Virus record (IMG/VR): IMGVR_UViG_3300042355_000776
Location: 1 to 20,048 of that record
Reading direction: 5' to 3' (one strand)
Origin: a virus
Length of the DNA: 20,048 nt
Shown here in pieces: positions 1-15,968 of the stretch. The stretch's first letter is position 1, and every line of letters begins with the position of its first letter. The position numbers were made by a program, and so were the translations under genes. Under the pieces are notes generated by a model. The model searched no databases, was not told where the DNA came from, and saw only the letters and a program-made list of their open reading frames with translations.

Positions 1-104
1 CCCTTTATGTAAAGGGTCGATGGTGAATTTCGATCTTTTTCTTCTAAGATATATTCGAATTGTTCTTCAGGAGCAGGTTTTTCGACAATAAGCCTTAATG
101 ACAT
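1..104 (-). CDS. 21: probable prohead protease gp21, N-terminus only (partial)
   Basis: The reading frame starts at an ATG at 104 and runs off the left edge, so only about 34 residues are visible, beginning MSLRLIVEKPAPEEQFEYIL and reaching a TLYIKG segment. In T4-like phages the prohead core protease gp21 opens with a short acidic stretch followed by a 'YIEG/YIKG' beta strand. That similarity, plus the nearby gp20 portal and gp13/gp4 genes, is why I suggest gp21. The catalytic Ser/His residues lie outside the window, so this is a family guess rather than proof. The start is supported by a TAAATA late-promoter box (110-115) exactly 5 bases upstream. No Shine-Dalgarno is present. In the family this serine protease cleaves scaffold and capsid proteins after Glu during head maturation. 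Confidence 0.5.
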   Translation of the reverse strand, partial: MSLRLIVEKPAPEEQFEYILEEKDRNSPSTLYIK

Positions 105-109
105 AAAAT

Positions 110-115
110 TATTTA
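110..115 (-). promoter_or_regulatory. late-type promoter box for the gp21-like gene
   Basis: On the minus strand the sequence reads CTAAATAATTTT then ATG at 104. TAAATA matches the last six bases of the T4 late consensus TATAAATA, with 5 bases to the start codon. Transcription would begin at about the A of the ATG. Confidence 0.6.
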
Positions 116-172
116 GATTTAGTCATAAAATTTTATATATCAAATGTAATAATTTATTATTGAGAATTAAAA

Positions 173-571
173 TTATCGTCTTTGATACCTAACTCTTTCT
201 TGATGTCTAATTGCGGCATCGAAATCTCTTTTCTGTTCGGGTGACAACAATTCTAAATTGTTTTTAATCAGTTCCAAATTATCAAGATGTTTTTGATCTA
301 ACTTACCAGTGTAAAAACTAAGTATGTTTAAATACTCCGACAATTTTTTTTGATATTTGGGATCATCTATATTTGGAATTGGTGTATTAGGAAGACCCAA
401 ATCACTTTCTCTCATTTTTTCTTTCATGTCTTTAACAATGGCTTTACCCCCACCAAACATAAGTCCAATTGTTAATGCTAATGATGCCAATTGCGGTAAC
501 ACATCTTCCTTAAATCCCTCATTTACAATTTCTTTATACGCATTTTCTAAAGCTATTTGATCTTTATTCAT
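173..571 (-). CDS. small hypothetical protein with a hydrophobic segment, possibly virion-associated
   Basis: A protein of 132 residues if started at the ATG at 571. A second in-frame ATG at 577 lies inside the TATAAATA promoter box (577-584) and would probably not be transcribed, whereas 571 sits exactly 5 bases after the box core, so I prefer 571. The N-terminus (MNKDQIALENAYKEI) resembles the short amphipathic capsid-targeting sequences of T4 internal proteins. A hydrophobic glycine-rich segment follows at about residues 27-45, and the rest is charged and helical, ending in a basic HQERVRYQRR tail. I do not recognise the family. Its place between gp21-like and gp4 genes and its late promoter suggest a head-related product, but that is inference. 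Confidence 0.7.
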   Translation of the reverse strand: MNKDQIALENAYKEIVNEGFKEDVLPQLASLALTIGLMFGGGKAIVKDMKEKMRESDLGLPNTPIPNIDDPKYQKKLSEYLNILSFYTGKLDQKHLDNLELIKNNLELLSPEQKRDFDAAIRHQERVRYQRR

Positions 572-576
572 ATTCA

Positions 577-584
577 TATTTATA
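577..584 (-). promoter_or_regulatory. T4-type late promoter TATAAATA, minus strand
   Basis: The minus strand reads TATAAATATGAAT then ATG (571). This is a perfect 8/8 match to the T4 late box, with 5 bases from TAAATA to the start codon. It overlaps an upstream in-frame ATG at 577, which argues for the start at 571. It forms a divergent pair with the perfect late box at 602-609 on the other strand. Confidence 0.7.
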
Positions 585-601
585 TTATATGAAGGTATTA
601 A

Positions 602-609
602 TATAAATA
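602..609 (+). promoter_or_regulatory. T4-type late promoter TATAAATA, plus strand
   Basis: A perfect TATAAATA followed by TAATT and then ATG at 615. With the T4 late geometry (start about 6 bases after the box) the first transcribed base would be the A of the ATG, predicting a leaderless mRNA. Confidence 0.7.
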
Positions 610-614
610 TAATT

Positions 615-1517
615 ATGAATGACCAGAATTTGATATTCGAAGCTTATCTAAATGAGAATAGATACAGAGCACAAGGCGAAATGATGAAAGGTACTCTTGG
701 GAAAGGTGAGACGATGTATGGCAGAGAAGCTGCAACAGGTTTTACCGGAGGTAAAGGAAATCAAATGATGCCGCCCGAAGAAGAAGCTAGAATTTTAAAT
801 TCCAAATATAGCAATAAAATAAATGACGATTTGAAGAATGGTGATATTATTGATGTGACGCAAATTTTAGGGGATAATAAAAAGAAAGAAATCGAAAAGC
901 TCATATCTATGATGAGCGATGGTGATTTGACAAAATCAAATCAACTCAATGTATATCCGGATGAAGGGGTTGGTCTGATACCAAAATTTAAAATTCAAAA
1001 TATAATTCAATTTTTGAATTATTTCACTTTCCCAGAAAAAAAATACAATACAACTTTAACAGAAATCAAAAATGCATTAATTGGTATCGATGATGGAACA
1101 CGAGAATATTATTCATCACTGCCACAAAGAGTAACACCCAAAGGAGAAAGAGTGACCAGACATACTGGCGACACAACAACATTTGCCCAGAGAATAAAAG
1201 GAAAGGAAGGTTCAAAAGGAACCAAAGCTGCATTAGCTGGTGTAAGAAAAGGAAACCCAGAAAGAGGTGGTGAAATGTCCACTTATATGCCAGATAGACC
1301 GATTGCTGAAGAACCACCAAGAGAACGCATGGCACCTTCAATTCGTTTAACTGCTGGTTCAATAGAACCAAAAAAATCAAAGGAAGGTAAGACTTTTGAT
1401 GAATTGAAAAAACAAAAAGGAAAAGCAAAAACCAAAAAATCTAAGACAAAACCAACTACCAAAAAACCAGCTAAAGTTGCCAAAGAATCATTCATCAGAG
1501 ATGATATTCCTTTTTAA
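615..1517 (+). CDS. hypothetical virion or internal head protein with lysine-rich C-terminus
   Basis: 300 residues. The N-terminus MNDQNLIFEAYLNENRY carries an I-x-E followed by A (residues 7-10), matching the known gp21 cleavage rule (hydrophobic-x-Glu, then small residue). It also resembles the capsid-targeting peptide of T4 internal proteins. The middle is polar with a helical patch. Residues about 250-290 are very rich in Lys, Thr and Pro and look like a histone H1-type tail, suited to binding DNA. I recognise no enzyme motif. It is the only plus-strand gene in the surrounding minus-strand structural block. It has its own perfect late promoter and converges on gp4, overlapping its stop codon by 4 bases. 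A DNA-associated internal head protein is my inference; another minor structural role is possible. Confidence 0.8.
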   Translation: MNDQNLIFEAYLNENRYRAQGEMMKGTLGKGETMYGREAATGFTGGKGNQMMPPEEEARILNSKYSNKINDDLKNGDIIDVTQILGDNKKKEIEKLISMMSDGDLTKSNQLNVYPDEGVGLIPKFKIQNIIQFLNYFTFPEKKYNTTLTEIKNALIGIDDGTREYYSSLPQRVTPKGERVTRHTGDTTTFAQRIKGKEGSKGTKAALAGVRKGNPERGGEMSTYMPDRPIAEEPPRERMAPSIRLTAGSIEPKKSKEGKTFDELKKQKGKAKTKKSKTKPTTKKPAKVAKESFIRDDIPF

Positions 1518-1966
1518 AATAATTCTTTTTCTGTAATAATTAAAAATTCGGCATTTTTTGTTGATGCGAATTTTTTAGCAGATTCCCACTTAGCTTGATT
1601 AATTAGCCACTGTTTTTGTTCATAAATTACAGTGGCTTTTTTCTTTCTATTTGAAGGTTTGGGTGGTATTGTTTGAGAAAAGGGTTTAATCTCGATTAGA
1701 TATTTTTTGATTTTCGTTCCTTCTTTTATGACGACATAATTATCAACATAATATCTATGTGGTTTGCCATCCACCGGACTAATGTATGGAACTACAATAT
1801 TTTCCGATCCCCACTCCAATACATTGGGATTTGTGTCTGCCCATATCATAAACTTTCGTTCAAACGATGAACGAAATATGGCAAATTTACCATTGAACTT
1901 TTCCGGATTTAATGGTTTAAAAATGCCCTGTGTGAATCTAGGATCTTTTTTAAAATTGAGTGACAT
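1514..1966 (-). CDS. 4: head completion protein gp4 (nuclease-like fold)
   Basis: 150 residues, about the length of T4 gp4. The sequence has the family pattern: a FRSSFERKFMIWADTN segment (about residues 31-46), then a WGSE strand, then YYVDNYVVIKEG and a YLIEIKP strand (around residues 85-97). The E..., D..., E-x-K arrangement is the signature of the TnsA/PD-(D/E)XK-like fold that gp4/50/65 head-completion proteins share. In T4, gp4 acts on the filled head together with gp50 before tail attachment, and its absence blocks head-tail joining. It begins 8 bases after the gp13 stop codon with no promoter or Shine-Dalgarno of its own, so it is probably the second gene of a gp13-gp4 unit. An 8-base perfect inverted repeat lies inside it (1854-1876). 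Confidence 0.88.
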   Translation of the reverse strand: MSLNFKKDPRFTQGIFKPLNPEKFNGKFAIFRSSFERKFMIWADTNPNVLEWGSENIVVPYISPVDGKPHRYYVDNYVVIKEGTKIKKYLIEIKPFSQTIPPKPSNRKKKATVIYEQKQWLINQAKWESAKKFASTKNAEFLIITEKELF

Positions 1967-1974
1967 TATTAAAA

Positions 1975-3126
1975 TTAACCTACGAAGAATGAAACTGGAT
2001 CCGACGAACCAAATCCAGCAGATGTTGAGAACAGATCCTGTTCCAATTTTTCTTTTTCAGATTGACCTTGCGTCATAATATCCTGTGAAAATAATTGACC
2101 ACCAAATAATGGAACCTGCCCATATTTTCCACGGACATAACCAACGGTAATTTTCGTTAACGCTAATGCATATTGATAAACCCAAGGTTCTTTAATGATA
2201 TCACGAATCGGTCTTTCAACATAAGAAGCTAATACGCCATAAAATCTTACGGCATCTGTTGGTTCTGGATACATTCTTAGATATTGTGTTCTCTCATCAA
2301 ATTCATAACTGCGTTTAGTTGCTAAAACCTTTTCACGGGTTTCCAACCAATTTTTAACACAATACCAACTAATCAAATCAAAACCAAAATTACCCATAGC
2401 ATAACTAAAATACGTTTGTTGTGCTAATGTTTGTTCTATAGTAAACAAAGTATTGATTCCGGTTGTACTGCCTTCTTCGAAATCTGTTATAGCTATAACC
2501 TTTCTATAATCCATGACATCATAATCAAACATATTATTAAACTTTTGATTATTTGTTTGTGGATTATTTGTAGTAGCTCGATTTACTCTACTTTCTGTGA
2601 AAAGAGATGATAAAGATAATCCACCGGAAATCAAAGTGGATGACATTTCTTTATATAAAGTGCTATCTATAATTTGATTTGCAAATACACCATCGCCTAT
2701 AATTCCAGAAAGAGCAGAAGAAGATGCAAAATATGAAGATGGTATACCTGTTGTAGCGATATAAACCGTCTCCGCAGTTTCTATATATGGTCCAGTATCT
2801 CTGGAGGGGGTTTTATGTTCCAATCTTTCCATCAAAGATAGATTTGGATTTGCCAAGGTATAAAGATGATCCAATCTAATACCCGTTCCCTTTTTATAAA
2901 TTTGCGAATCGAATATCAAATATTCTTTGGTATAACCAGCATATCGAGAAAACATTTCACATGCTATTGAAATATTTTCAAATAATTGATCTTGATGAAC
3001 TTCAATAGAAATTAATGGAGCACCAAGAGATCTTACGATTCTATCAGCCAATCTAGAAAAATTATCAATTTTACTATTAAGATTCGTGCTTTGAAAAGAT
3101 GTAATAGGTGTAATAGCACATGTCAT
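1975..3126 (-). CDS. 13: neck protein gp13-like
   Basis: 383 residues, longer than the roughly 310 of T4 gp13, as in other distant T4-like phages. The N-terminal quarter (SRLADRIVRSLGAPLISIEV, then ENISIACEMFSRYAGYTKEY) is the family's helical opening. The C-terminal half holds the conserved FDLISWYCVKNWLETREK region, a YLRMYPEP strand, and a long helical segment ending GQVPLFGGQLFSQDIM, typical of gp13. In T4, gp13 and gp14 form the neck that closes the filled head and accepts the tail. It is the first gene of a unit with gp4, led by a late-type box 5 bases before its ATG. Assignment to gp13 rather than gp14 rests on the C-terminal pattern, from memory of the family. Confidence 0.8.
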   Translation of the reverse strand: MTCAITPITSFQSTNLNSKIDNFSRLADRIVRSLGAPLISIEVHQDQLFENISIACEMFSRYAGYTKEYLIFDSQIYKKGTGIRLDHLYTLANPNLSLMERLEHKTPSRDTGPYIETAETVYIATTGIPSSYFASSSALSGIIGDGVFANQIIDSTLYKEMSSTLISGGLSLSSLFTESRVNRATTNNPQTNNQKFNNMFDYDVMDYRKVIAITDFEEGSTTGINTLFTIEQTLAQQTYFSYAMGNFGFDLISWYCVKNWLETREKVLATKRSYEFDERTQYLRMYPEPTDAVRFYGVLASYVERPIRDIIKEPWVYQYALALTKITVGYVRGKYGQVPLFGGQLFSQDIMTQGQSEKEKLEQDLFSTSAGFGSSDPVSFFVG

Positions 3127-3131
3127 GCTAT

Positions 3132-3137
3132 TATTTA
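3132..3137 (-). promoter_or_regulatory. late-type promoter box for gp13-gp4
   Basis: The minus strand reads GCTAAATAATAGC then ATG (3126). The TAAATA core is 5 bases from the start codon. A nearly identical string (GCTAAATAATAAC then ATG) precedes the gene starting at 14907, so this is a reused element rather than a chance AT-rich match. Confidence 0.65.
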
Positions 3138-3143
3138 GCTATA

Positions 3144-4952
3144 TTAAGCTTCTGGTGCTGGTTGTGGCGTTGTACCACCGGGAGTTGGTGTTTCTGGAGG
3201 TGTTTCAGCACCACCAGCTGCTTCTGGTTCTGCCGCAGGTCCACCAGTAAACGGTGGAGGTGTACCACTACCACCTAAAGATCCCCCGCCTCCACCACCC
3301 CCACCTCCTGCTTCCGCTTCAGCAGGAGCAGCACCACCCGCCGCTTGTGCTTCTAATTGTTCTTTCCAATTAGGTCCAGCGGATTCAATCTGTGCCAATT
3401 CCCATCTAAATGCTTTGTCTTTTCTTAAGAATTCTCTATTGGCTTTGATATCAACATCAGACCAACCCAGATATCTCTTTTGAGCATATGATGGTGATAC
3501 ACTTTCATTTGAGGTAATATTAGAGAAATTGTTTAGTTTCAATTCAAGTTTTTGACTTTCTCTCATTTCATAGAAATTGGTCGGAACATTAAATTCAATT
3601 TCTATGTTTTGCTCTGATAAATCAAATTTATCCCACAATCCGGTCAATTGTAAATGTGTAATAAATCCATTTTTAATTCCACTCGCAAATAGTTGTTGTA
3701 GACGAATTATGAATTTTGCAAATTTTAATTCTTCTCTCAACATATCAGCACCATCTCTGAATGCATCTTGTGGATCTAGACGAGTTGTGGGGACTTTTAA
3801 TGCTTGATATAATTTTTTAACGAAATACATCAAGTCTGTTAATTCACCCAAATTAGCACCACCAGCTAATTGAGTGACACTGGTTCCTTCAGAACCTGCT
3901 CTTTTCGCAAACCAGAAATTATCCAATAAAGACTGTGGATTAAACTTCTGTGCAATACCTCCTTGATTCACATCAAATGTTTTAGAAGACCAGAACTGAG
4001 ACATCAATTTTCTGAGATATGATTCTGCTTTAGGTGCTGGCATATTACCAACATCAACATTAAACACTAATCTCTCAGGTGCTCTGGCTAATCTATAGAT
4101 TACTATAGAATCTTCGATCATTGATAATTGTCGATATGCACGTCTAGCATTTTCCAAAAATGGAACACGCATCGTTTTACTTTCATTCCATACATCGGAA
4201 TGAATGTACGTGACCTGATTTTTATCCATCGGGATATAATCAACACCAATCTGTTTTAATGGATTATTTGGATCGAATTTGGGTTTTCTATAAAGAAACC
4301 CTTTGACCATAACATTCTGGATGTTCGAAAATACGGGATCTACAATTTCGGTTGGTATCTGAACGACACCCAATATTCCTTTATCAACATGTTTTTTGTG
4401 AATAATGTGTTCCCAATATATCTCTCCTTCGGTAAGGAGTTGTCTAAAATATGACCATCCTTTGTGTTCGAAATCGAAATAATTAGCGAACTTATAAAAC
4501 TCTTTGTTGAGTGTGGTTGTCTCGTAATCTGATAATTTTTTGTCTCGATATTTAATATTCAAACAACTACCAGTAAACGAATCGATATTTATAATTTCAT
4601 CGCAAATCTCGTCCAACGCATTCGAAACTTCTGCGAATGCTGCCATTACTCTATAGTCTCTAATTCTTGCAAATTTATCCTTTTGGATATTTGCATACAT
4701 TATCTGGTTGTATCTGTTATCCGAAAATACACCAGCAACAGATTGATTGTTATAATCAAAATTTTGAGAAATGGAATGCTTGGATAAAACCTCTGATCTT
4801 CTCGAACCAGTTTCTTCGAAATATTTGTATTTCGGATTTAGGTTATCAGCCTCTACATATGATCCAACTCCGGAATAAGGAAGTTTTGATGAGATATAAC
4901 TCATCAATTCTCTTCCAAAAGTCGAACTTTTACCATCGTCAAAATTATTCAC
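3144..4952 (-). CDS. 20: portal vertex protein gp20
   Basis: 602 residues against about 524 in T4 gp20. The body matches T4-type portals: FARIRDYRVMAAFAEVSNAL then a DEICDEII helix near residues 92-122, the WEHIIHKK region, YRLARAPERLVFNVDVGNMP (about 285-304), then KLMSQFWSSKTFD and an LKVPTTRLD loop followed by the long stem helix. The dodecameric portal nucleates head assembly and is the channel for DNA packaging. The last 70 or so residues are an unusual low-complexity tail rich in Gly, Ala, Pro and Glu, including a run of nine Gly, and explain the extra length. The start is GTG with no Shine-Dalgarno. An in-frame ATT lies one codon earlier, at the exact 5-base distance from a TAAATA box. 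Confidence 0.95.
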   Translation of the reverse strand: MNNFDDGKSSTFGRELMSYISSKLPYSGVGSYVEADNLNPKYKYFEETGSRRSEVLSKHSISQNFDYNNQSVAGVFSDNRYNQIMYANIQKDKFARIRDYRVMAAFAEVSNALDEICDEIINIDSFTGSCLNIKYRDKKLSDYETTTLNKEFYKFANYFDFEHKGWSYFRQLLTEGEIYWEHIIHKKHVDKGILGVVQIPTEIVDPVFSNIQNVMVKGFLYRKPKFDPNNPLKQIGVDYIPMDKNQVTYIHSDVWNESKTMRVPFLENARRAYRQLSMIEDSIVIYRLARAPERLVFNVDVGNMPAPKAESYLRKLMSQFWSSKTFDVNQGGIAQKFNPQSLLDNFWFAKRAGSEGTSVTQLAGGANLGELTDLMYFVKKLYQALKVPTTRLDPQDAFRDGADMLREELKFAKFIIRLQQLFASGIKNGFITHLQLTGLWDKFDLSEQNIEIEFNVPTNFYEMRESQKLELKLNNFSNITSNESVSPSYAQKRYLGWSDVDIKANREFLRKDKAFRWELAQIESAGPNWKEQLEAQAAGGAAPAEAEAGGGGGGGGGSLGGSGTPPPFTGGPAAEPEAAGGAETPPETPTPGGTTPQPAPEA

Positions 4953-4960
4953 AATATACT

Positions 4961-4966
4961 TATTTA
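4961..4966 (-). promoter_or_regulatory. late-type promoter box for the portal gene
   Basis: The minus strand reads CTTAAATAAGTAT, then ATT, then GTG (4952). The TAAATA core is 8 bases from the GTG start and 5 bases from the in-frame ATT at 4955. Either codon would give a leaderless or nearly leaderless mRNA. Confidence 0.55.
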
Positions 4967-5015
4967 AGTTTGAAATCCCACTAAATCAATTTAATTAAAA
5001 CATTTTTTATTTGAA

Positions 5016-6095: not shown

Positions 6096-6140
6096 GTCTT
6101 GAATTTCGAAATGGAATGCTCTAGCGTTTATAACAATAAT

Positions 6141-6158
6141 CCTCCCAGCTAATATTTA
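6141..6158 (-). promoter_or_regulatory. late-type box followed by a strong Shine-Dalgarno for gp15
   Basis: On the minus strand GATAAATA (TAAATA core at 6153-6158) is followed by TTAGCT and then GGGAGG (6141-6146). No ATG, GTG or TTG in frame follows at ribosome distance; the in-frame codons after it are ATT, ATT, GTT, ATA and AAC. The box overlaps the region just past the helicase stop. This is one of only two late units here with a leader. Confidence 0.6.
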
Positions 6159-7781
6159 TCAAACGAATCTTTTGAGGAAGTATTTAGGTAGCTTATCTTT
6201 GTTTTTTAATACCGAATCGGTTATGGATGCATCCATTATGTAAGTCACACACTTATCCTTTTCAGATCTAACACCTCTACCACATGCTTGAATTAGATTA
6301 TTCAACATTTTATTCAAATACCAAACGGGATCATCCTTGAACAATTTCTTGATTCTTTCATCTCCTAATGGTAGCCATGCCGCTTTCATTATAATCTGAA
6401 ATCTAGCCAAGTCCTCTTTTAAATCGATACCATATGTCAATGAAGGACTCACCAAAATAGTGTTTTCGTCAGATTCGTAATGTTGCTTCAATATTTGCTC
6501 GTTATTGCAACCGGGAACTCGAAATAGAAACCTAGAATCTTTTATATTTTCTTTTAAAAATTCCGTTATTTCCATGGTGTGTGTATGGATGATTCCCTTC
6601 ACATCTTTATGATAATCACATATTTTTTTGACCTGTGATTTTAGATTTGGTAGTTGTTCTTTCAGATTTTTGTAATTCAACCTGACTTTTGTTGTTGATA
6701 GAATCGGCGCGTTCTTTGGATTGAATGTAGAATCAACTTCAATATATTCATAATCATCAATACCCAATGTTTTCGCAAAATGTTTGTGATCGATGATGGT
6801 AGCAGACATCAGCAATATTTTTTCACCATATGCAAATATATGTTTGGACAAAGTATCCACCTTTAATGGTTTTAATGTTATTTCATTTTGCGTTTTTTCT
6901 ATCAAATATTCGCAAGAGTTCCATGTCTCAATTGTTGTCTTGAGAGACATAAACAAGTTATTATACAACGAATACCTTTGCAATTCCGATACTGGTATAT
7001 CATTTTTCTTTCGAGATAAGTTTTTCTTGATTGAATCAATTTCGGTGTTCAACTTAATAATTAAGTTGTTTAACCAAACATGAAATTTTGTATAATCCGA
7101 TATCGGTATTCCCAAAATAGGAATATCCAATTTTTTTAGTATTTTCAGATTTATACTCCTACTGAATCTTTTGATTAGTTCATCTTCAATCTCGGAAGCT
7201 TCATCACATATGATAAATTCTCTTTTCTTGACATGATCTGGCAAAGACAAAAACATGCTATAATTCAAAACACCAAATCTACTAACTAACAATTCTTTTC
7301 TGGAATTGTAATATGGACATACGGAGTTTGCTATGCATTTGTCCTTCAATTTGGAATCGAAAACACATGGAGCTACTTCAACTTCAAATCTAGGGTCTAC
7401 AGCACAAATGTAATTACGTTTACCTTTTAAAAGATTAGCATCGTCAAATGTTTCTTTATATTGATCTTGCAATCCTTTGGTTATAGTCAAAGCAAAAGCA
7501 CCAAATTCTGGTTCTGCAATACAATCAGATGCTCTATAATATTCACCAAACTGATCAATAGCAAATGCTTCATTACTTTCTATCAAGTATTTGTATTCTT
7601 GTGATGGAGTTTTACTCGCATTCCCTAAAGTTTTTGACAAAAAACTTTTACCACTCCCTGTTGGAGCACAACATATGACATATCGTTTTCCTTTGTCAAA
7701 GGCAGCATCGATCCTAGATAGCAATTCCTCTTGTTGTTTTAGTGGGGTAAAATTTTCCGGAAATTTATCGATTAGATTCAC
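6159..7781 (-). CDS. XPD/DinG-type superfamily 2 helicase with a four-cysteine iron-sulphur motif
   Basis: 540 residues. Walker A is APTGSGKS (39-46), motif II is DEAS (193-196, a DEAH-box variant), motif III is SATI (326-329), and motif VI is QACGRGVR (498-505). Between motifs Ia and II four cysteines at 126, 139, 149 and 155, the last followed by PYY, have the spacing style of the 4Fe-4S domain of XPD, Rad3 and DinG helicases, which unwind DNA 5' to 3'. An insertion of about 50 residues (about 52-95) separates Walker A from motif Ia (ALTITKG), longer than usual. A DNA repair or replication role is inferred. The start is GTG without Shine-Dalgarno; the upstream frame is closed by a TGA with no better start. 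It begins 31 bases after the preceding gene and ends right before the gp15 promoter. Confidence 0.85.
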   Translation of the reverse strand: MNLIDKFPENFTPLKQQEELLSRIDAAFDKGKRYVICCAPTGSGKSFLSKTLGNASKTPSQEYKYLIESNEAFAIDQFGEYYRASDCIAEPEFGAFALTITKGLQDQYKETFDDANLLKGKRNYICAVDPRFEVEVAPCVFDSKLKDKCIANSVCPYYNSRKELLVSRFGVLNYSMFLSLPDHVKKREFIICDEASEIEDELIKRFSRSINLKILKKLDIPILGIPISDYTKFHVWLNNLIIKLNTEIDSIKKNLSRKKNDIPVSELQRYSLYNNLFMSLKTTIETWNSCEYLIEKTQNEITLKPLKVDTLSKHIFAYGEKILLMSATIIDHKHFAKTLGIDDYEYIEVDSTFNPKNAPILSTTKVRLNYKNLKEQLPNLKSQVKKICDYHKDVKGIIHTHTMEITEFLKENIKDSRFLFRVPGCNNEQILKQHYESDENTILVSPSLTYGIDLKEDLARFQIIMKAAWLPLGDERIKKLFKDDPVWYLNKMLNNLIQACGRGVRSEKDKCVTYIMDASITDSVLKNKDKLPKYFLKRFV

Positions 7782-7812
7782 CGGGATAAGGTAGTCTATA
7801 AGATTCTTTTCG

Positions 7813-8151
7813 TCAAGCCATTTTCTCGTATATCACCAATCTGTTGTTGTACAACTTCGAATTGGTTTTTTTATTCAAAGATAATAATCTGTATTTGATA
7901 TTATGATCGGCAGTTCCGAAACTAGAAATTGTATATTCCAATGTTAATATACCCTCACTCACATGGATTTTAAATGGATATGGAATTTCATATTTTTTGG
8001 TTTCGTTGTTATCTAACTTAAGATACAAATTTATATAAAAATCCTTCTGATTGATCAAAACTAATTTACCTTCCTTTACTAGTTTGCCATCTATTCGAAA
8101 TTCCAGATTTCTTTGTAAAAGATTATTAAAAGCTAATTCTACATTTGTCAT
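7813..8151 (-). CDS. hypothetical protein, beta-rich, 112 residues
   Basis: No family recognised. The composition (alternating hydrophobic and charged residues, few helix-formers, phrases such as FRIDGKLVKEGKLVLINQ and FYINLYLKL) suggests a small all-beta fold. It starts one base after the stop codon of the preceding gene with no promoter or Shine-Dalgarno, so translation is probably coupled. It sits between the SH3-barrel-type protein and the iron-sulphur helicase in one minus-strand unit, which hints at a nucleic-acid-related role but does not show it. Confidence 0.75.
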   Translation of the reverse strand: MTNVELAFNNLLQRNLEFRIDGKLVKEGKLVLINQKDFYINLYLKLDNNETKKYEIPYPFKIHVSEGILTLEYTISSFGTADHNIKYRLLSLNKKTNSKLYNNRLVIYEKMA

Positions 8152-8152: not shown

Positions 8153-8533
8153 TTATGAATCCATGTACACCATTTTTTCTAAAGTGGACATCGTGTATAT
8201 TTTTTCGTTGAAAAATTTCCAGAATGTATCATTTGCTGGATAACTTTTTATCAAATAACATTCGTCCATATTTATACATCTATAATCAATCATCAATATA
8301 TCCCAAGTGATAATTAGATTTTTTTGTTGTGGATTGAAATGCGGTAATTGTGTCGGTGGTCTATACCCAAGTACCATTCTTCCATTAAATGAATTTAATA
8401 AAGAACTTGAATTTGTACATAGCATTTTCCTAAAATCTGGTCTATATGTAATGGGATGTCTTCTAAAAAAAGAAATCTCACACACATTACGCATGAGTGT
8501 GAGATGTAATTGATTATAGGTGACACGCTTCAC
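8153..8533 (-). CDS. WYL_2/DUF2693-type SH3-barrel protein (probable)
   Basis: 126 residues. The pattern, a V..I.F.RR segment, then an RKMLCTNSSSLLNS loop, a YRPPTQLP motif, a LIITWDILMIDYRCINMD strand pair and a PANDTFWKFFNEKIY C-terminal region, matches a phage family I know as Sm-like SH3 beta-barrel proteins (WYL_2, DUF2693) found in T4-like genomes. The recall is from memory and the function is unknown. The start is GTG (8533), placed exactly 5 bases after a TAAATA box, which supports it over internal ATGs. A perfect 9-base inverted repeat lies at codons about 10-20 (8475-8505), where it could affect translation or transcription. It is the first of three genes ending with the helicase. 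Confidence 0.75.
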   Translation of the reverse strand: MKRVTYNQLHLTLMRNVCEISFFRRHPITYRPDFRKMLCTNSSSLLNSFNGRMVLGYRPPTQLPHFNPQQKNLIITWDILMIDYRCINMDECYLIKSYPANDTFWKFFNEKIYTMSTLEKMVYMDS

Positions 8534-8538
8534 CTATA

Positions 8539-8544
8539 TATTTA
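8539..8544 (-). promoter_or_regulatory. late-type promoter box before the GTG start at 8533
   Basis: The minus strand reads ATTAAATATATAG then GTG. The TAAATA core is 5 bases from a non-ATG start, which suggests that box position, not the codon, is what is conserved. Confidence 0.55.
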
Positions 8545-8967: not shown

Positions 8968-8972
8968 ACAAT

Positions 8973-9350: not shown

Positions 9351-9355
9351 TATTA

Positions 9356-9360: not shown

Positions 9361-9388
9361 ATCCTACCAATTTTTCATATTTTGTCAA
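9361..9388 (-). promoter_or_regulatory. possible sigma-70 (early) promoter for the clamp-loader gene
   Basis: TTGACA (9383-9388) is a perfect -35. After a 16-base spacer comes TAGGAT (9361-9366), 4 of 6 matches to TATAAT. The -10 is weak, so this is only a candidate. An early promoter would suit a replication gene. Confidence 0.4.
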
Positions 9389-9409
9389 TTTCATTTTCGC
9401 TTAAACATG

Positions 9410-9415
9410 TAAATA
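9410..9415 (+). promoter_or_regulatory. late-type promoter box for the gene at 9422
   Basis: TGTAAATAATTAAA then ATG. The TAAATA core is 6 bases from the start codon, on the plus strand. Confidence 0.5.
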
Positions 9416-9421
9416 ATTAAA

Positions 9422-10102
9422 ATGGCTGAAGACGTATACATTAATGTAAAAGATTTGCCCGAAGTAACGGAAATCGTTAATGGTGATTATATTTTGATAG
9501 AAACCCCAGATGGTACTAATATAATCAACTTTGAAAATTTCGTATTACCTACAGCTAATACTTTGATCACTACATTAGCTACAGAAAATACAAATGCTAT
9601 ATTGAGCTTATCCGCCGATACTAGCACTAAGATTTCTACGCTGGAACAAAGTGTTAGTGCATTGTCTTCATTTGCAGTTGCCAAAGCAACTGTAACGATA
9701 GCACAGAATAATTACTCCGGAACTGCCGTTCTTTTATTCGAACCAACAAAAGTACCTTCACTCCTACCATTAACAGTTGAAGATATCATTGTAGTACCTG
9801 CTAATGAATATGCCGCTAAAAATCAATTCTATATAAGCAATCTATCACAACAGAACCTTGTTACAATAACTGGTATATTCCCACTACAATCCATAAGTCT
9901 CACCGATGAAACTCCTATCGTGTTACCTTCAAACAAGGTTACATTTACTGGTAGTACATCAGCACTAAGCGCACTTAGTGGCACAGTACCAGAATATGAA
10001 TTGAGTGTTTCTGATATTCTCAGCAGAATTGAATTTAAGACTGAATACACTCCAGCTATTCAAGAAGCAAAATACAATATTTTTGTTGTTAAGAAGTTTT
10101 AG
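9422..10102 (+). CDS. probable virion structural protein (beta-rich, tail-fibre-like)
   Basis: 226 residues, low in charge and rich in Ser, Thr, Ala and Val. The opening INVKDLPEVTEIVNGDYILI followed by a TNIINFENF strand is a module I have seen at the N-terminus of phage tail and fibre-associated proteins, where 'DGDYLLIE' strands fold as a small beta domain. A short heptad-like helix follows (TKISTLEQSVSAL, about residues 69-81), consistent with a trimeric coiled coil, then beta-rich sequence. No enzyme motif is seen. It stands alone on the plus strand behind its own late-type box and converges on the kinase-like gene, overlapping its 3' end by 14 bases. The structural role is inferred from composition and the N-terminal module. 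Confidence 0.7.
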   Translation: MAEDVYINVKDLPEVTEIVNGDYILIETPDGTNIINFENFVLPTANTLITTLATENTNAILSLSADTSTKISTLEQSVSALSSFAVAKATVTIAQNNYSGTAVLLFEPTKVPSLLPLTVEDIIVVPANEYAAKNQFYISNLSQQNLVTITGIFPLQSISLTDETPIVLPSNKVTFTGSTSALSALSGTVPEYELSVSDILSRIEFKTEYTPAIQEAKYNIFVVKKF

Positions 10103-10850
10103 TATTCTTAACAAATTCTTTCAACATTTGTAATTGTTGTTTTTCAAATTTTTCCGATTGATTTGCGTTTTGTTGTTCTTGTAACAGATTTTCGATATCG
10201 CTCAGATTTTGTGGATTAAGTATCGTATCTGCTTCTTCACCTATAATATTACCATCCGTATTTAAATATTGTCGGATGAGGTGGATTCTTTCTTCTCTAT
10301 TTCCGAAAATTTCTATTATAGCTGGACAATCGTCTTTCGGGAAAAACTGGGTCTTGTTGAAATTACTATGATATTGATACATCAATGCCTTGAATATATT
10401 ATCAATTTCTTCAATATATACTGGATCAGTTTCCCTTAATTTATCTCCAACTATTTCAACGGGTGATAATTTTGTCTTCGGAATGAAAAATATAATATCC
10501 AAAAAATGCATCGATTCCCTAACTAGGGGAACTATTTTGTTTATAAATTCCGCGTCTATATCAGATGATTGTTTTTCAAATGCCCACAATGAATAAACCA
10601 AACAATCTATAGGTGATCTATCAAAAATAATTTTGTCATCTGCTGTGTATTTTTGTAAATCATCGATCATTCCATTTAAAATTGCCCACTGACCATCCTT
10701 ATTACACGATTTACTATGTGGGTATTTATTTTCTTCCAAAAGTTTCCTGTAATTAAATTCGCTAGTTTTATATTTGGGCCATTCTTTAATGAAATCATTA
10801 ACTAATGTTGTTTTACCCAAATTGGCAGACCCACTTATACTAATTCGCAT
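10089..10850 (-). CDS. P-loop NTPase, nucleotide/nucleoside kinase-like
   Basis: 253 residues. The N-terminus ISISGSANLGKTTLVNDFIK holds a Walker A motif GSANLGKT (7-14). A KIIFDRSPIDCLVYSLW segment (about 94-110) has the DRSP 'aspartate-arginine' element seen in deoxynucleoside and thymidylate-type kinases and in NadR-like AAA_28 ATPases, and an FFIPKTK strand follows. The C-terminal 50 residues are Gln- and Asn-rich and helical. It probably phosphorylates a nucleoside, nucleotide or related small molecule, but substrate residues cannot be assigned by eye. The upstream sequence is GTAAAATATATTC then ATG, a one-mismatch version (AAAATA) of the late box at the standard 5-base spacing. The 3' end overlaps the convergent gene at 9422-10102. 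Confidence 0.75.
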   Translation of the reverse strand: MRISISGSANLGKTTLVNDFIKEWPKYKTSEFNYRKLLEENKYPHSKSCNKDGQWAILNGMIDDLQKYTADDKIIFDRSPIDCLVYSLWAFEKQSSDIDAEFINKIVPLVRESMHFLDIIFFIPKTKLSPVEIVGDKLRETDPVYIEEIDNIFKALMYQYHSNFNKTQFFPKDDCPAIIEIFGNREERIHLIRQYLNTDGNIIGEEADTILNPQNLSDIENLLQEQQNANQSEKFEKQQLQMLKEFVKNTKTS

Positions 10851-10855
10851 GAATA

Positions 10856-10861
10856 TATTTT
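10856..10861 (-). promoter_or_regulatory. weak late-type box for the kinase-like gene
   Basis: The minus strand reads AAAATA (one mismatch to TAAATA) 5 bases before ATG (10850). The spacing is exact but the core is imperfect. Confidence 0.35.
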
Positions 10862-10864
10862 ACA

Positions 10865-11287
10865 TCATGTTTCGGAATCTTCAATATCTGATTTTATTGA
10901 TGTAGTAGATTTTTTAACAGGCATTTTGTATTTTAAAAAAGATGCTATATCTCTTTTTGTAAATTTACACAAAGGATATTTGTGTATATCATATACATCA
11001 GCCCAAACATATTTTGAATGTTCTTTGCTGAGTTTTACTGTTCCGGGTTTTGGTTTACCATAGTATAAAACAAAATCAGGTTTCTTAAAAAATAATTTAT
11101 AATTAGATAATTCTAATCCGGTTTCTTCGAATAATTCTCTTTTTAAAGCTTGTATATAAGTTTCATCTACATTTAAATGTCCGCCGGGAAATTGAAATTT
11201 CTGCAATCTTTCTGAAAATAATAATAAAACTCTATCTTTCTTTAATAAGATTATCTTCGACACCTTTTTTGTATCTAATGTGTCCAT
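10865..11287 (-). CDS. Nudix hydrolase
   Basis: 140 residues. A complete Nudix box runs from Gly36 to Leu58 in the pattern G-x5-E-x7-R-E-L-x-E-E-x-G-L: Gly36, Glu42, Arg50, Glu51, Glu54, Glu55 and Gly57 are all in place. Nudix enzymes cleave nucleoside diphosphates linked to another group, such as oxidised dNTPs, NADH or capped RNA; the substrate cannot be told here. The residues before the box (FQFPGGHL) are typical of MutT-like members. T4 has an unrelated Nudix protein, NudE. A late-type box lies exactly 5 bases before the ATG, predicting a leaderless single-gene mRNA. The gene is followed 14 bases later by the start of the kinase-like gene. Confidence 0.92.
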   Translation of the reverse strand: MDTLDTKKVSKIILLKKDRVLLLFSERLQKFQFPGGHLNVDETYIQALKRELFEETGLELSNYKLFFKKPDFVLYYGKPKPGTVKLSKEHSKYVWADVYDIHKYPLCKFTKRDIASFLKYKMPVKKSTTSIKSDIEDSET

Positions 11288-11292
11288 CTTAT

Positions 11293-11298
11293 TATTTA
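11293..11298 (-). promoter_or_regulatory. late-type promoter box for the Nudix gene
   Basis: The minus strand reads GATAAATAATAAG then ATG (11287). GATAAATA is 7 of 8 against the T4 late consensus, with 5 bases to the start codon. Confidence 0.65.
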
Positions 11299-11324
11299 TC
11301 AGATACTTCGGAACTAGCTACCAA

Positions 11325-12152
11325 TCATTTCACTGCTTCATAATATCTGACATAATCAACCATCATTTTGACCTTGGGATTTTCTCTGGTGCCATAACCA
11401 TCTTTTGGTATTGGTCCAGACCAAAGCATGTCTTGCACTTCAGTGCTAAAAATCATGAATTGTGGTCTATGTGATATGACTTGAGTATGAGTCCATACCA
11501 ATCTCCCATCAATGTAGAATTTATAATAATCCTTGGTCCATTCCAATGCATATGTGTGGTATCCTATGCCTAAACCAAGATCTTCCGTTTCTATTCCATC
11601 CCACCCACTATTCTCACCATAATCTCCCCAGTGTAGGTTTATTGAATTTATCCCCGATATATGATTGAAATCATTATCAAAAACTCTATGTTCTACGATG
11701 TCGATTTCAACACCAGCTTTACCGGGATCATTTAATGGATTGCCTATTGTAGATGATTGCAACCAAAAATCGGAAAATGTTCCGGAATAATCCATGAAAC
11801 ATATAGAAGCTTCCCAATAACCATACGTTTTTTCAAATATACCTTCAGTTGAAATTACTCCCGTATAATGCTTACCATCAATGGTGTATGTTTTTATTAC
11901 TAAATTGCCATTCTCCAATGATACCGCTTCGGGAACATCTATAGCATGTCTTCGTTGACCCTGAGACCAATGTCTCCATTTACTTTTGTCTAATTCTATG
12001 CCATTAAAATCATCAGACCAAACCAATTTATAATTAGGTGGAGGATCGGCAGTAATATGATTAGGAATTAAAAATATAAATATTCCTATTAAAAATAGTC
12101 GAACTAATTTTGAAAAGATTTTAGCCTTTTCAAAATTTAAGTTCGTTTTCAT
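11325..12152 (-). CDS. secreted GH16 glycoside hydrolase (laminarinase/agarase-type clan)
   Basis: 275 residues. Positions 13-35 form a signal peptide: basic residues, a hydrophobic core (LFLIGIFIFLIP) and an ITA cleavage site. The mature protein opens YKLVWSDDFNG, the usual first strand of bacterial GH16 beta-jellyroll enzymes. The catalytic motif EIDIVEH contains Glu149 (nucleophile), Asp151 and Glu154 (acid/base) in the E-x-D-x-x-E order. YHTYALEW, YKFYIDG and the closing VDYVRYYE strand complete the family pattern. GH16 enzymes hydrolyse beta-1,3/1,4-glucans, agarose, carrageenan or related polysaccharides; substrate cannot be told. A phage-encoded, signal-peptide-bearing GH16 is unusual: it could clear capsule or matrix polysaccharide when cells are lysed or export it beforehand. 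It follows PhoH by 6 bases and probably shares its mRNA. Confidence 0.93.
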   Translation of the reverse strand: MKTNLNFEKAKIFSKLVRLFLIGIFIFLIPNHITADPPPNYKLVWSDDFNGIELDKSKWRHWSQGQRRHAIDVPEAVSLENGNLVIKTYTIDGKHYTGVISTEGIFEKTYGYWEASICFMDYSGTFSDFWLQSSTIGNPLNDPGKAGVEIDIVEHRVFDNDFNHISGINSINLHWGDYGENSGWDGIETEDLGLGIGYHTYALEWTKDYYKFYIDGRLVWTHTQVISHRPQFMIFSTEVQDMLWSGPIPKDGYGTRENPKVKMMVDYVRYYEAVK

Positions 12153-12158
12153 TTCATA

Positions 12159-12959
12159 TTAATGGTGTGATAATTTATCTTTTAAATTTTTGAATGATTT
12201 TGATACAAATCTACAAAAATCAGATCGTACAATACAATCTTCCGTTAATTCTACACAATGAATTCCGTGTTCTATTGATTCTTCTGTGTTAAACAAATCA
12301 TAAACTGTTGCGAATCCAGATTTGTTTGGTGGTAAATCACTTTGATCTGGGTCTCCACAGATAATCACCTTACAGAATTCACCCACGCGAGAAAGTAATG
12401 TTTGCATTTCTCGAAGAGAAAGATTTTGTGCTTCGTCGCAACAAATAAATTTCACGGAGAAATGTAATCCGCGAGCGAAATTTATAGGACAAACTGTTAT
12501 GCGATTATCTTTTTCAAGTTTTTTAGTTTGTTGTGTACCTATTAATTCTTCGAATTTGTCATTGAAGGGAGTCAAATAAACACCAAATTTTTCCATAATA
12601 TCTCCCGGCAAAAATCCCAATTTAGAATCGGAACTTTCCACAGCAGATCTAATTAAAACTAAATCAGATACTTTTTTAGCATTTAATAATTTAAGTCCAC
12701 AATACATCGAAAGAATTGTCTTCGATGATCCCGCTGGTCCTTTTAAAAACAACGCCTTTGTTTTTTTATCCAAAACAAGATCTATAATCTCCTTTTGTTT
12801 TTCTGTCCAAGGAAGATCTTTTATTTTTAATTCATAATTGATCTTTTCCTTTTGGAAAACATACGGGGATTCCTTTTTAGTTTTGGAGTTCTTATTTAAA
12901 GACTCTTTATCCGCTTTATCATCATCTAAATGAGGATGAATTGGGGTATTATCGTCCAT
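12159..12959 (-). CDS. phoH: PhoH-like ATPase
   Basis: 266 residues. A polar tail of about 40 residues precedes the domain. WTEKQKEIIDLVLDKKTKAL leads to Walker A GPAGSSKT (74-81), then VLIRSAVESSDSKLGFLPGD (the PhoH signature region, about 101-120), Walker B FICCDEAQN with Asp175-Glu176, and the sensor ICGDPDQSDLP. This is the PhoH family, common in phages, especially marine ones, and related to the helicase-like part of PhoH2. The cellular role is not settled; ATPase or RNA helicase activity is proposed. The TAAATA box before it begins with the TAA stop codon of the preceding gene (12969-12971), a compact overlap. GH16 is the next gene. Confidence 0.93.
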   Translation of the reverse strand: MDDNTPIHPHLDDDKADKESLNKNSKTKKESPYVFQKEKINYELKIKDLPWTEKQKEIIDLVLDKKTKALFLKGPAGSSKTILSMYCGLKLLNAKKVSDLVLIRSAVESSDSKLGFLPGDIMEKFGVYLTPFNDKFEELIGTQQTKKLEKDNRITVCPINFARGLHFSVKFICCDEAQNLSLREMQTLLSRVGEFCKVIICGDPDQSDLPPNKSGFATVYDLFNTEESIEHGIHCVELTEDCIVRSDFCRFVSKSFKNLKDKLSHH

Positions 12960-12965
12960 TAATAT

Positions 12966-12971
12966 TATTTA
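12966..12971 (-). promoter_or_regulatory. late-type promoter box for phoH-GH16, overlapping a stop codon
   Basis: The minus strand reads GATAAATAATATTA then ATG (12959), 6 bases from the TAAATA core. The first three bases of TAAATA are the stop codon of the gene ending at 12969. Confidence 0.6.
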
Positions 12972-13238
12972 TCCCAGATTTGATTTTTCTATAGCAATAA
13001 GTTCTTTTATGCAATCTTCCAATGATGGTGTTATGATATCGACCTTTGTCTTTTTTGTCGGGGGTTCATTTATCATACCTGTTATATCCAAAATTCTGGA
13101 AAATACATCATATTCTAATTTTTGTAGTTTGGAATCTCTTTCGAACGGCACGGGAGAATTGAAACTACCATTTCTTGAAATAGCTGTTTTCTTAGAAAGA
13201 ACCATTTGTTCGTATGTATTTGCTAATAGTGATTCCAT
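12969..13238 (-). CDS. hypothetical protein, 89 residues
   Basis: No family recognised. Two helical parts (LLANTYEQMVLSKK and YDVFSRILDITGMI) flank a polar stretch, with a C-terminal helix ending ELIAIEKSNLG. The start at 13238 has one of the best Shine-Dalgarno sequences in the window (AGGAG, 6 bases before the ATG). It is the last gene of a five-gene minus-strand series beginning at 14907, separated from the gene before it by 11 bases. Confidence 0.7.
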   Translation of the reverse strand: MESLLANTYEQMVLSKKTAISRNGSFNSPVPFERDSKLQKLEYDVFSRILDITGMINEPPTKKTKVDIITPSLEDCIKELIAIEKSNLG

Positions 13239-13240
13239 AT

Positions 13241-13251
13241 TATTCTCCTTT
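13241..13251 (-). promoter_or_regulatory. clear Shine-Dalgarno for the gene at 13238
   Basis: The minus strand reads AAAGGAGAATAATATG: AGGAG followed by AATAAT and the ATG. It contrasts with the box-adjacent, SD-less starts of the transcription units around it. Confidence 0.6.
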
Positions 13252-14279: not shown

Positions 14280-14281
14280 TT

Positions 14282-14521
14282 TTAAATTGCTGGTTTTTGA
14301 TTAGCGGGGGTATTTTTCTTATCGTCACCATCTTCACCATTCAACATGGCAGCTATTTTAGCTTTATCGTTCGCTGCTTTTTTAGGGTCGTTCAATGCTT
14401 GTCTTCTCGTTTCTTTAATTTTTTCTGCAATTTTGTTTACTTCTGGAGAAGACATATCTTCAGAAAAGATATACTTTTTGAGCAGTGCATTAACTTTATT
14501 GTCGAAATTTTCCGTATTCAT
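14282..14521 (-). CDS. hypothetical small helical protein, 79 residues
   Basis: The protein is highly charged and helical (NKIAEKIKETRRQALNDPKKAANDKAKIAAML), ending in a disordered polar tail (DGDDKKNTPANQKPAI). This resembles small scaffold or prohead-core proteins in composition, but no family is recognised. It starts 2 bases after the preceding stop in the five-gene series, without Shine-Dalgarno. Confidence 0.7.
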   Translation of the reverse strand: MNTENFDNKVNALLKKYIFSEDMSSPEVNKIAEKIKETRRQALNDPKKAANDKAKIAAMLNGEDGDDKKNTPANQKPAI

Positions 14522-14523
14522 AA

Positions 14524-14907
14524 TTAATCTGGTTTTAATGTATTTAAATCATATGAAACACCAAATTTAGATGATTCATCTTTCAAAACTTGATCGAAAT
14601 CACTCAATGCTTTTGGTAAATCAACGTCTACAAGGTCCGATGCTTCTTTCATTCTATTTACAAAAGTTCGAAGCATACTATCACTACTAAGTTCTTTACT
14701 GCCTTGTGCTAATATCAGAAAAGTGGTTTTCAATACAGAACCCAAAACTTCCATTTGATTTTCCATTTGTTTCTTGAAATCATCCGGATTAATATTCTCC
14801 GCAGGTGCTTGTTGCTGTTGTGCTTGATCGGGCATAGCAGCATCTTGGGGCGTTTCTGGTGCTTCCAAAATGGAATAGGTCTCTTTTATGAGATTCAAAA
14901 ATGTCAT
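14524..14907 (-). CDS. hypothetical protein with an N-terminal capsid-targeting-like sequence
   Basis: 127 residues. The N-terminus MTFLNLIKETYSILEAPETP contains ILE followed by A (residues 13-16), matching the gp21 cleavage rule, and has the amphipathic aromatic/acidic look of T4 internal-protein targeting peptides. A Gln/Pro/Ala-rich linker (about 22-40) is followed by helical sequence (EVLGSVLKTTFLILAQGSKEL, then SMLRTFVNRMKEASDL). It leads the five-gene series down to 12969 behind a late-type box identical in ten bases to the one before gp13. A structural or prohead role is inferred. Confidence 0.75.
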   Translation of the reverse strand: MTFLNLIKETYSILEAPETPQDAAMPDQAQQQQAPAENINPDDFKKQMENQMEVLGSVLKTTFLILAQGSKELSSDSMLRTFVNRMKEASDLVDVDLPKALSDFDQVLKDESSKFGVSYDLNTLKPD

Positions 14908-14912
14908 GTTAT

Positions 14913-14918
14913 TATTTA
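14913..14918 (-). promoter_or_regulatory. late-type promoter box for the 14907-12969 gene series
   Basis: The minus strand reads GCTAAATAATAAC then ATG (14907), 5 bases from core to start. It is nearly identical to the gp13 promoter. Confidence 0.65.
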
Positions 14919-14934
14919 GCGATATACGATTAAA

Positions 14935-15447
14935 TTAAATCCTATATAGTTTCAATTTAATCGAAGGATCTTTTTTTAGATTTTCCGAAAGTTTAGTTAA
15001 ATCGTTTCTTTGAAGAAACTTGGACATACGAGGTATAATATTTTTGGATTTATTCTCTGCTATATTTTTCATTCTGTAGATGAAATCTTTATCAATTATT
15101 AGAGTTGATTCGATACATATAATCGGCAAATCCAATTTATTTGCTATAATTTTAATTATATTGTGTAATAATATATTACATTCTTCAGAATTATCCCAAT
15201 AATCCAAATGATTACATTTGTAGTCATTTCTAATCACAATAATATTGTTATATTCTGAATTTATATAATTCAGTATTTCTTGTAATAAGAAATGTAATAT
15301 TATTTTCTTTGTATCTTTAGATTTTAAAGATACTTCCAAATTATATAGATATATAAAATTTGTAATATCTATTTCTATTTTGTTCCTTAAAATAGAATTT
15401 AGATTTATTATATTTAGATTATATTCTTTAAGTATAATATTTTCCAA
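14935..15447 (-). CDS. hypothetical AT-rich gene with a consensus early promoter
   Basis: 170 residues beginning at TTG (15447). Composition is extreme: Ile, Asn, Leu and Lys dominate, with strings such as LNIINLNSIL, IIKIIANKLDLPIICIESTLIIDK and a C-terminal MSKFLQRNDLTKLSE. No family is recognised. The base composition is more AT-rich than that of its neighbours, suggesting a recent arrival or fast evolution. Unlike most minus-strand units, it lies behind a perfect TTGACA-N16-TATAAT, so it is probably expressed early from host polymerase. TTG is supported by AAGG 9 bases upstream and by a GAAATA element 5 bases upstream. Early-expressed orphan genes are often host-takeover factors, which is only inference here. 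Confidence 0.7.
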   Translation of the reverse strand: MENIILKEYNLNIINLNSILRNKIEIDITNFIYLYNLEVSLKSKDTKKIILHFLLQEILNYINSEYNNIIVIRNDYKCNHLDYWDNSEECNILLHNIIKIIANKLDLPIICIESTLIIDKDFIYRMKNIAENKSKNIIPRMSKFLQRNDLTKLSENLKKDPSIKLKLYRI

Positions 15448-15467
15448 TTTATTATTTCCTTAAAATA

Positions 15468-15495
15468 ATTATACTGTGTTTTTTAAAATTGTCAA
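15468..15495 (-). promoter_or_regulatory. perfect sigma-70 promoter TTGACA-N16-TATAAT
   Basis: On the minus strand TTGACA (15490-15495) and TATAAT (15468-15473) are both exact consensus with a 16-base spacer. A start of transcription near 15461 would leave a leader of about 13 bases containing AAGG before the TTG start at 15447. It is the strongest promoter-like sequence in the window. Confidence 0.75.
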
Positions 15496-15558
15496 TAATT
15501 TTTTTTATTTCCAAACACATTTTTATTTATGTGATGTCCAAAAATTGCAATACCCATT

Positions 15559-15957
15559 TTAAAATTTTATTTTCGATATTCGTAAATTTACAATCCCGTT
15601 GTAATAATCTTCTCTAATCAAAGCATCTTTATCGAATTGTTCTTTAGCTTCAAAATAAGCCATTTCGGATTTTGAATTACAAAATCGTATTATTTCGAAT
15701 TTAAAATTGTCTTTTCCGTGTTTCTTAATATCTTCGTTGAGTTCTGAAGAACTGCTTGTATATGTTTTCCAATCAGTCTCAACAATACTAATTCGCTTAC
15801 GCTTTTTACCCTTTAAAGGGGGTTTGCGCTTTTTTGTAAGCATTTGTTTTTTTCCAATATATTTTTTGTTATCAATTATATTGGTTATAACATAAACCAT
15901 ACCAAATGGGTTTTCTGGTATTGGAATTTTACATTCCCAATGTCCCAAGTCAATCAT
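15559..15957 (-). CDS. GIY-YIG family endonuclease
   Basis: 132 residues. The catalytic opening FGMVYVITNIIDNKKYIGKK has Tyr22 and the YIG triplet at 33-35 with the usual spacing; the first triplet is MVY instead of GIY. The next element, TYTSSSSELNEDIKKHGKDN, matches the G/SS..L..DI..HG pattern, and Glu103 in YFEAKEQF is in the place of the catalytic glutamate. Such proteins are Seg-like homing endonucleases or phage repair nucleases; there is no obvious C-terminal DNA-binding module, so a small stand-alone nuclease is likely. It is a single gene with a late-type box 5 bases before the ATG. Confidence 0.85.
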   Translation of the reverse strand: MIDLGHWECKIPIPENPFGMVYVITNIIDNKKYIGKKQMLTKKRKPPLKGKKRKRISIVETDWKTYTSSSSELNEDIKKHGKDNFKFEIIRFCNSKSEMAYFEAKEQFDKDALIREDYYNGIVNLRISKIKF

Positions 15958-15962
15958 AATCC

Positions 15963-15968
15963 TATTTA
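15963..15968 (-). promoter_or_regulatory. late-type promoter box for the GIY-YIG gene
   Basis: The minus strand reads CCTAAATAGGATT then ATG (15957), 5 bases from core to start, lying between the stop of the preceding gene and this start. Confidence 0.6.

Follow-up and report, generated by a model that had tools for sequence, protein, structure and literature searches.

Results

The TAAATA box of the window

The window analysed here, that is, the whole stretch of 20,048 bases, is a fragment of a viral contig from IMG/VR (IMGVR_UViG_3300042355_000776) with 31% G+C. It was assigned to the T4-like phages by its genes for the portal, head-tail adaptor Ad2, head closure and tail sheath stabilizer proteins, helicases, SbcD/gp47 and a gp55-type late sigma factor. 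The sigma factor gene, already recognized in the initial annotation, lies at 18128-18661 on the plus strand (phrog_234, E 3e-27; 36-38% identity to cyanophage gp55), and its product is the proposed reader of a TAAATA box which stands 5 nucleotides (nt) before many start codons of the window and of its relatives. We directly observed the positions of this box, its spacing, conservation and place in operons, and a functional split between boxed genes and those bearing sigma70-type promoters.

On the minus strand, the box precedes by 5 nt an ATG at 104 (box 110-115, element 102-115; the gene continues beyond the window edge), 571 (577-582, 569-582; another ATG, at 577, overlaps the box), 3126 (3132-3137, 3124-3137; Ad2, gp13-like, phrog_211), 11287 (11293-11298, 11285-11298; NUDIX hydrolase), 14907 (14913-14918, 14905-14918) and 15957 (15963-15968, 15955-15968), and a GTG at 8533 (8539-8544, 8531-8544). 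On the plus strand, TATAAATA (core 604-609, element 604-617) stands 5 nt before the ATG at 615. The gap is 6 nt at two ATG codons, at 9422 (plus strand; 9410-9415, 9410-9424), a gap shared by three of the five relatives found, and at 12959 (minus strand; 12966-12971, 12957-12971), which opens a PhoH-like gene. Variant boxes on the minus strand lie 5 nt before the ATG at 10850 of a thymidylate-kinase-like gene (AAAATA; 10848-10861; phrog_2107) and, weakly, before a TTG at 15447 (GAAATA; 15445-15458). At gene 104, TAAATA-N5-ATG is kept in all 12 of the distinct close relatives shown, with variable sequence farther upstream, and most relatives shown keep the spacing at the Ad2 gene.

The portal gene departs from this pattern by a single codon. 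Its box (4961-4966, minus strand) is followed after 5 nt by ATT (4955-4953) and then GTG (4952), so that the element TAAATA-N5-ATT-GTG spans 4950-4966. Relatives have TAAATA-N5-ATG-GCN at the same place; the ATT thus sits where +1 and the start would be expected, and a single base change would have made it AUU, with a usable GUG right behind. The portal may therefore start either at AUU at +1 or at GTG at +4, the other option being that ATT is a sequencing error.

Spacing of the box relative to start codons

TAAATA occurs 31 times in the window, less often than in dinucleotide shuffles (mean 51.5). Seven of these copies lie exactly 5 nt before an ATG-started open reading frame (ORF) of at least 50 amino acids, the class counted here, against 0.07 per other offset (Poisson p 2e-12). 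The histogram of the 236-kb relative G001 gave 62 ORFs at offset 5, 14 at 6 and 11 at 7, with about 1.7 elsewhere (offset-5 p 8e-73), and nine window-like contigs pooled gave 191 at offset 5 and 41 at offset 6 over a background of about 5; offset-5 counts are 30-40 times background. When gene starts were called independently of motifs and words were searched de novo by offset, TAAATA at 5 nt ranked first both in G001 (67 of 303 genes where 2.8 were expected, p 2e-66) and in G003 (32 of 110 called genes, p 3e-34). Anagrams of TAAATA produced no peak apart from overlapping shifts of the same motif, and G011, a contig of 41.5% G+C, retains the peak (7 of 27 boxes). No offset-5 peak was present in the spacing histograms of T4, P-SSM2, AG-345-F15, AG-345-P14, Milchi and Melnitz; the T4 copies of TAAATA lie mostly 21-28 nt upstream of annotated starts, and the top start-linked word there is the Shine-Dalgarno sequence AGGATT.

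All boxes listed in the initial annotation, including the variants and the portal ATT, were thus recovered at the distances given there. The clustering that it judged to exceed chance holds in the window, and the spacing histogram that it proposed shows the peak in the relatives as well. Its statement that the starts comprise ATG, GTG and TTG stood for the first two, which make up 91% and 9% of the 102 boxed starts of G001 and G003; TTG is absent from this set, and the TTG of the window rests on a near-match box.

Register of the box

The late box of T4 occupies positions -13 to -6 and requires no -35 element (PMC2988020). Placed in this register, TAAATA with a 5-nt gap would set +1 on the first base of the start codon; a -10 hexamer at -12 to -7, such as TATAAT with a 6-nt gap, would likewise set +1 there. 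Alignment of the 102 boxed starts revealed T at -1, A at +1 and no conserved position at -30 to -36, hence no -35 element. The TAAATA core is strongly enriched, the outer TA of the T4 consensus (-13/-12) is relaxed to A/G and A/C, and no A is fixed at -3 (A 0.28, T 0.42). Shine-Dalgarno-like 4-mers occur at none of 100 boxed starts in G001 and at 3 of 76 in G002.

Promoter or ribosome signal

Five independent lines of evidence point to the TAAATA box acting as a promoter and not as a ribosome site. It is present at 39 of the 52 G001 genes that open a same-strand run (75%) and at 21 of 106 tightly packed internal genes (20%; odds ratio 12, p 2e-11), and the enrichment at genes first in a directon reaches p 3e-18 when pooled over five contigs. 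TAAATA is depleted within genes on both strands (0.56-0.83 of the Markov expectation), as it is in T4 and P-SSM2; no depletion of TATAAT within genes was seen. Boxed genes of G001 include structural ones (tail sheath, tail fibre, Ad2) and the sigma70-class genes include helicase, primase, SbcD, endonuclease and thymidylate synthase, many others being without a known family and one weak baseplate-hub match falling among the sigma70 genes. The NUDIX gene, boxed in the window, carries, depending on the relative, one of two hexamers at 6 nt (TATAAT, TATGAT) or one of two at 5 nt (TAAGTA, TAAATA), with a constant register to its ATG; the swap of promoter class would thus keep the predicted +1 on that codon.

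Sigma70-type promoters

The remaining line of evidence is a second class of promoter, most evident in G002 and G004, where a 6-nt gap separates TATAAT from the start (25 cases in G002, p 6e-22) and a -35 TTGA lies at -34 (logo at -34 to -32: T.78, T.73, G.78). When contigs were scanned with the E. coli sigma70 consensus, a peak at exactly 6 nt was found in G001 (19), G002 (41) and G004 (17), against about 1-3, and also in G006 (7) and G003 (6); the same scan of T4 gave no 6-nt peak. Individual promoters are of the TTGACA/TATAAT type with the two elements 16-18 bp apart, as in TTGACA-17-TATCAT-N6-ATG of G001. Two candidates lie in the window. The gp47/SbcD-like gene has TTGAAA at 18658-18663, a 17-bp spacer, TATAAT at 18681-18686 and then 7 nt to the ATG (18658-18696, plus strand), its relatives having TATNAT 6 nt before the ATG. 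The DNA helicase gene has a putative early-type promoter made of TTGACG (7811-7816), 17 bp and TACCTT (7788-7793), 6 nt before a GTG (7779-7816, minus strand), with a -10-like hexamer (TATGAT, TAGGAT or TATGTT) 6 nt before the start in relatives.

Relatives of the window

A near-DNA search in phages returned no record closely matching the window, and a portal-based search yielded 80 related contigs. The window groups with close relatives (71-78% identity) in the portal tree, whose Far-T4 member is RM378; the window and 20 relatives stand apart from T4 and the cyanophages, with RM378 further out. Besides the window, 6 of 17 related contigs, mostly fragments, have a match to the gp55 family phrog_234. 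The gp55 gene of G001 (L094:3597-4970, corresponding to G001 103597-104970) contains an intein-like in-frame insert of about 330 residues, which begins CVDEETEALTKRGW and ends before NS...; the gp55 gene of the window is without it.

Two further genes of the window may be mentioned. A glycosyl hydrolase family 16 (GH16) gene (11325-12152) lies inside the T4-like gene block, and the bacterial relatives found are distant, with 26-31% matches in metagenome-assembled genomes of Treponema and Clostridia. The head-closure gp4-like protein encoded at 1514-1966 also matches a TnsA-like endonuclease N-terminal domain.

Discussion

The reading that best fits these observations, to which we assign a probability of roughly 0.87, is that the first genes of both late, gp55-dependent, and early, sigma70-dependent, transcripts are usually leaderless. 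The TAAATA boxes would be gp55-type late promoters with +1 on the first base of the start codon, so that late transcripts would begin at AUG (or GUG) and be translated without a leader. Sigma70 promoters of DNA-metabolism genes, whose -10 hexamer ends 6 nt before the start, would behave likewise. Internal genes of the operons would be translated otherwise, by reinitiation or coupling, by means of Shine-Dalgarno sequences in one subgroup, or without them. Three parts of this reading are inferred from the sequence: recognition of the box by gp55, transcription with the start codon as +1, and ribosome initiation at that codon.

It could be argued instead that TAAATA serves translation initiation on mRNAs with leaders, as an A-rich ribosome signal of the Kozak-like kind used by Bacteroidetes, with the spacing set by ribosome geometry. 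Bacteroidetes do without Shine-Dalgarno sequences and prefer A at -3 and at -12/-13 (PMC6847099), Far-T4 phages have been tied to Flavobacteriales, and Shine-Dalgarno sequences are near background at internal genes of G001 and G003. Nevertheless, we regard this explanation as very unlikely. A ribosome signal would not account for the concentration of the box on genes first in a directon, nor for its avoidance within genes on the antisense strand as well; the A at -3 is not fixed; and the other motif, accompanied by a proper -35, has its spacing shifted by one nucleotide, as expected for a -10 hexamer. Moreover, either motif serves the same gene in different relatives, and the box marks structural genes.

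A different possibility is that the boxes are late promoters whose +1 lies elsewhere, or that the true start codons are downstream, the mRNAs having ordinary leaders. The choice of starts was based on sequence, sigma factors permit some freedom of +1, and genes of the gp15 type indicate that a leadered arrangement exists. On the other hand, homologues align from the box-spaced ATG across relatives while the sequence upstream of it has diverged, and the GenBank starts of the cultured Pelagibacter phage HTVC008M agree with box-spaced starts. To our knowledge, transcription by all enzymes of the sigma70 family starts about 6-9 nt after the -10 element; +1 would thus not lie much upstream, and a +1 farther downstream would remove the conserved ATG. 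This explanation therefore appears very improbable. That the spacing is a coincidence of AT-rich composition and start-codon picking, as might be suspected in a window of 31% G+C where TAAATA is a common word, has a negligible probability: anagrams of the word give no peak, the excess over background is large, G011 keeps the peak at its higher G+C content, and AT-rich T4-like controls are without it. The spacing histograms of whole contigs refute it.

Several points nevertheless weigh against leaderless initiation, which is here a prediction from sequence. The box of window gene 16217 is located about 16 nt upstream, so that a short leader would be retained, and gp15 has a leader of 5-8 nt in several relatives despite its box. 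Offsets 4, 6 and 7 occur too, the counts in G002 being 20 at 4, 29 at 5 and 16 at 6; some transcripts would thus be longer by 1-2 bases at the 5' end, or would have their +1 one base closer to the box. If the host were a flavobacterium, leaderless mRNAs would be rare there: they account for 5.5% in flavobacteria (PMC9723704), and 87% of leaders exceed 10 nt (PMC6847099).

The initial annotation had identified the box as a T4-type late promoter with +1 on the start codon, and both the register (PMC2988020) and the promoter tests favour this assignment. Its description of leaderless late transcription as wholesale went too far. Besides the gp15 leaders, most tightly packed internal genes are without a box; the gene starting with ATG at 13238 has an ordinary Shine-Dalgarno sequence 6 nt upstream (GGAG at 13245-13248, within AAAGGAG; 13236-13248, minus strand); and Shine-Dalgarno sequences are enriched at internal genes of G002 and G004 (5.0 versus 1.6 per position in G002), and hardly in G001 and G003. 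With respect to the classes of genes involved, it was too narrow: the prediction for late genes stood, and the sigma70 promoters with a 6-nt gap predict leaderless genes of the early type as well.

A separate observation concerns the region upstream of gp15. An inverted repeat precedes this gene in several relatives (L003, L071, L072, L013, L015, L111 and L080); its right arm abuts the gp15 ATG, and the late box is located within its loop or next to it. The arms differ in sequence among relatives and keep their complementarity (up to 14 bp in L003); averaged over 35 relatives, the inverted repeat shows a small excess over shuffles. This arrangement resembles that of T4 gene e, the start of which is hidden in read-through RNA and exposed in RNA initiated at the late promoter (PMC3014915). 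In the gp15 gene of the window (6138-6158), TAAATA is followed by GGGAGG and ATTATTGTT, and the expected start position holds none of ATG, GTG and TTG.

The late transcription of T4 is a textbook system, in which mRNAs have leaders and Shine-Dalgarno sequences. T4 late promoters (TATAAATA, served by gp55, gp33 and gp45) and those of the window clade share the core box, the lack of a -35, the late structural genes, the encoded gp55-type sigma factor and the avoidance of the box within genes. They differ in spacing: most T4 boxes are 21-28 nt upstream of the annotated start, with a Shine-Dalgarno sequence in the leader, whereas the gap in the window clade is 5 nt. Leaderless mRNAs of lambda and P2 genes and of mycobacteria likewise have +1 on the start codon; here, however, this is predicted to be the standard for first genes throughout the genome of a T4-like phage, and for two sigma classes. 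Leaderless transcripts have been reported for the giant phage phiKZ and the Thermus phages phiYS40 and P23-45, whose transcription systems are unrelated. Searches of open-access papers returned no description of leaderless late transcription for T4-like phages. Thus, what is new here is a variant that combines T4-type late promoters with leaderless mRNAs, each of them already known.

This architecture is not confined to the window clade. Among the start-linked words of HTVC008M, a pelagimyophage included as a control, TAAATA at 5 nt ranks first (11 cases against 0.8 expected, p 1e-9). Of the 13 boxed starts of this phage, 12 are those annotated in GenBank (11 at 5 nt, one at 6 nt); the boxed genes include tape measure, head closure, baseplate tail tube cap and baseplate wedge. 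The late architecture is the same as in the window clade, but HTVC008M belongs with the cyanophages to Kyanoviridae, its spacer often starts with GTA (TAAATAGTA), and its internal genes have AGGAGA-type Shine-Dalgarno sequences. No literature on these boxed starts was found. Rhodothermus phage RM378, a cultured Far-T4 phage, has TATTTAA exactly 6 nt before 11 ATG-started ORFs; it differs in the word itself, in a conserved A-rich spacer and in a portal only 23% identical. TATTTAA is not enriched at genes first in a directon (2 of 28 versus 8 of 106), and with such a spacer a promoter is not distinguishable from a translation signal in this phage.

As to the host, published work connects Far-T4-like phages with Bacteroidetes or Flavobacteriales (PMC7198788, PMC13037479). 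The TTGACA/TATAAT promoters of the phages studied here are not of the Bacteroidetes type, and the Bacteroidetes -7 word TAnnTTTG is not spaced like a promoter element when whole contigs are considered; in the redundant close set it peaks at 11 and 17 nt. No bacterial genomes carrying the portal were found, and the tRNA genes (none in G001 and G003, eight in G002) give no hint of a host. Phage-encoded IF3 was looked for and is absent. Homologues of ribosomal protein S21 are encoded in G002 (39344-39463), G004 (58820-58936), G005 (34318-34425) and HTVC008M (91228-91431), and none was found in G001 or the other window-like contigs. Where present, such a homologue could contribute to leaderless translation.

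We suggest tentatively, and with somewhat less than even confidence, that leaderless initiation is the default for first early and late genes in a widespread aquatic group of T4-like phages, that it arose independently or is ancestral in pelagimyophages, and that these phages depend on, or impose, a ribosome state favouring leaderless mRNAs. If common aquatic relatives of T4 dispense with leaders, software for phage gene and promoter prediction would miss starts and promoters wherever it relies on ribosome sites and on promoters lying between genes. Late-promoter prediction failed in pelagimyophages in a 2020 study (PMC7029224), and promoters abutting the start codon could explain this failure. 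A cultured phage-host pair would also offer a genome-scale handle on the translation of leaderless mRNAs.

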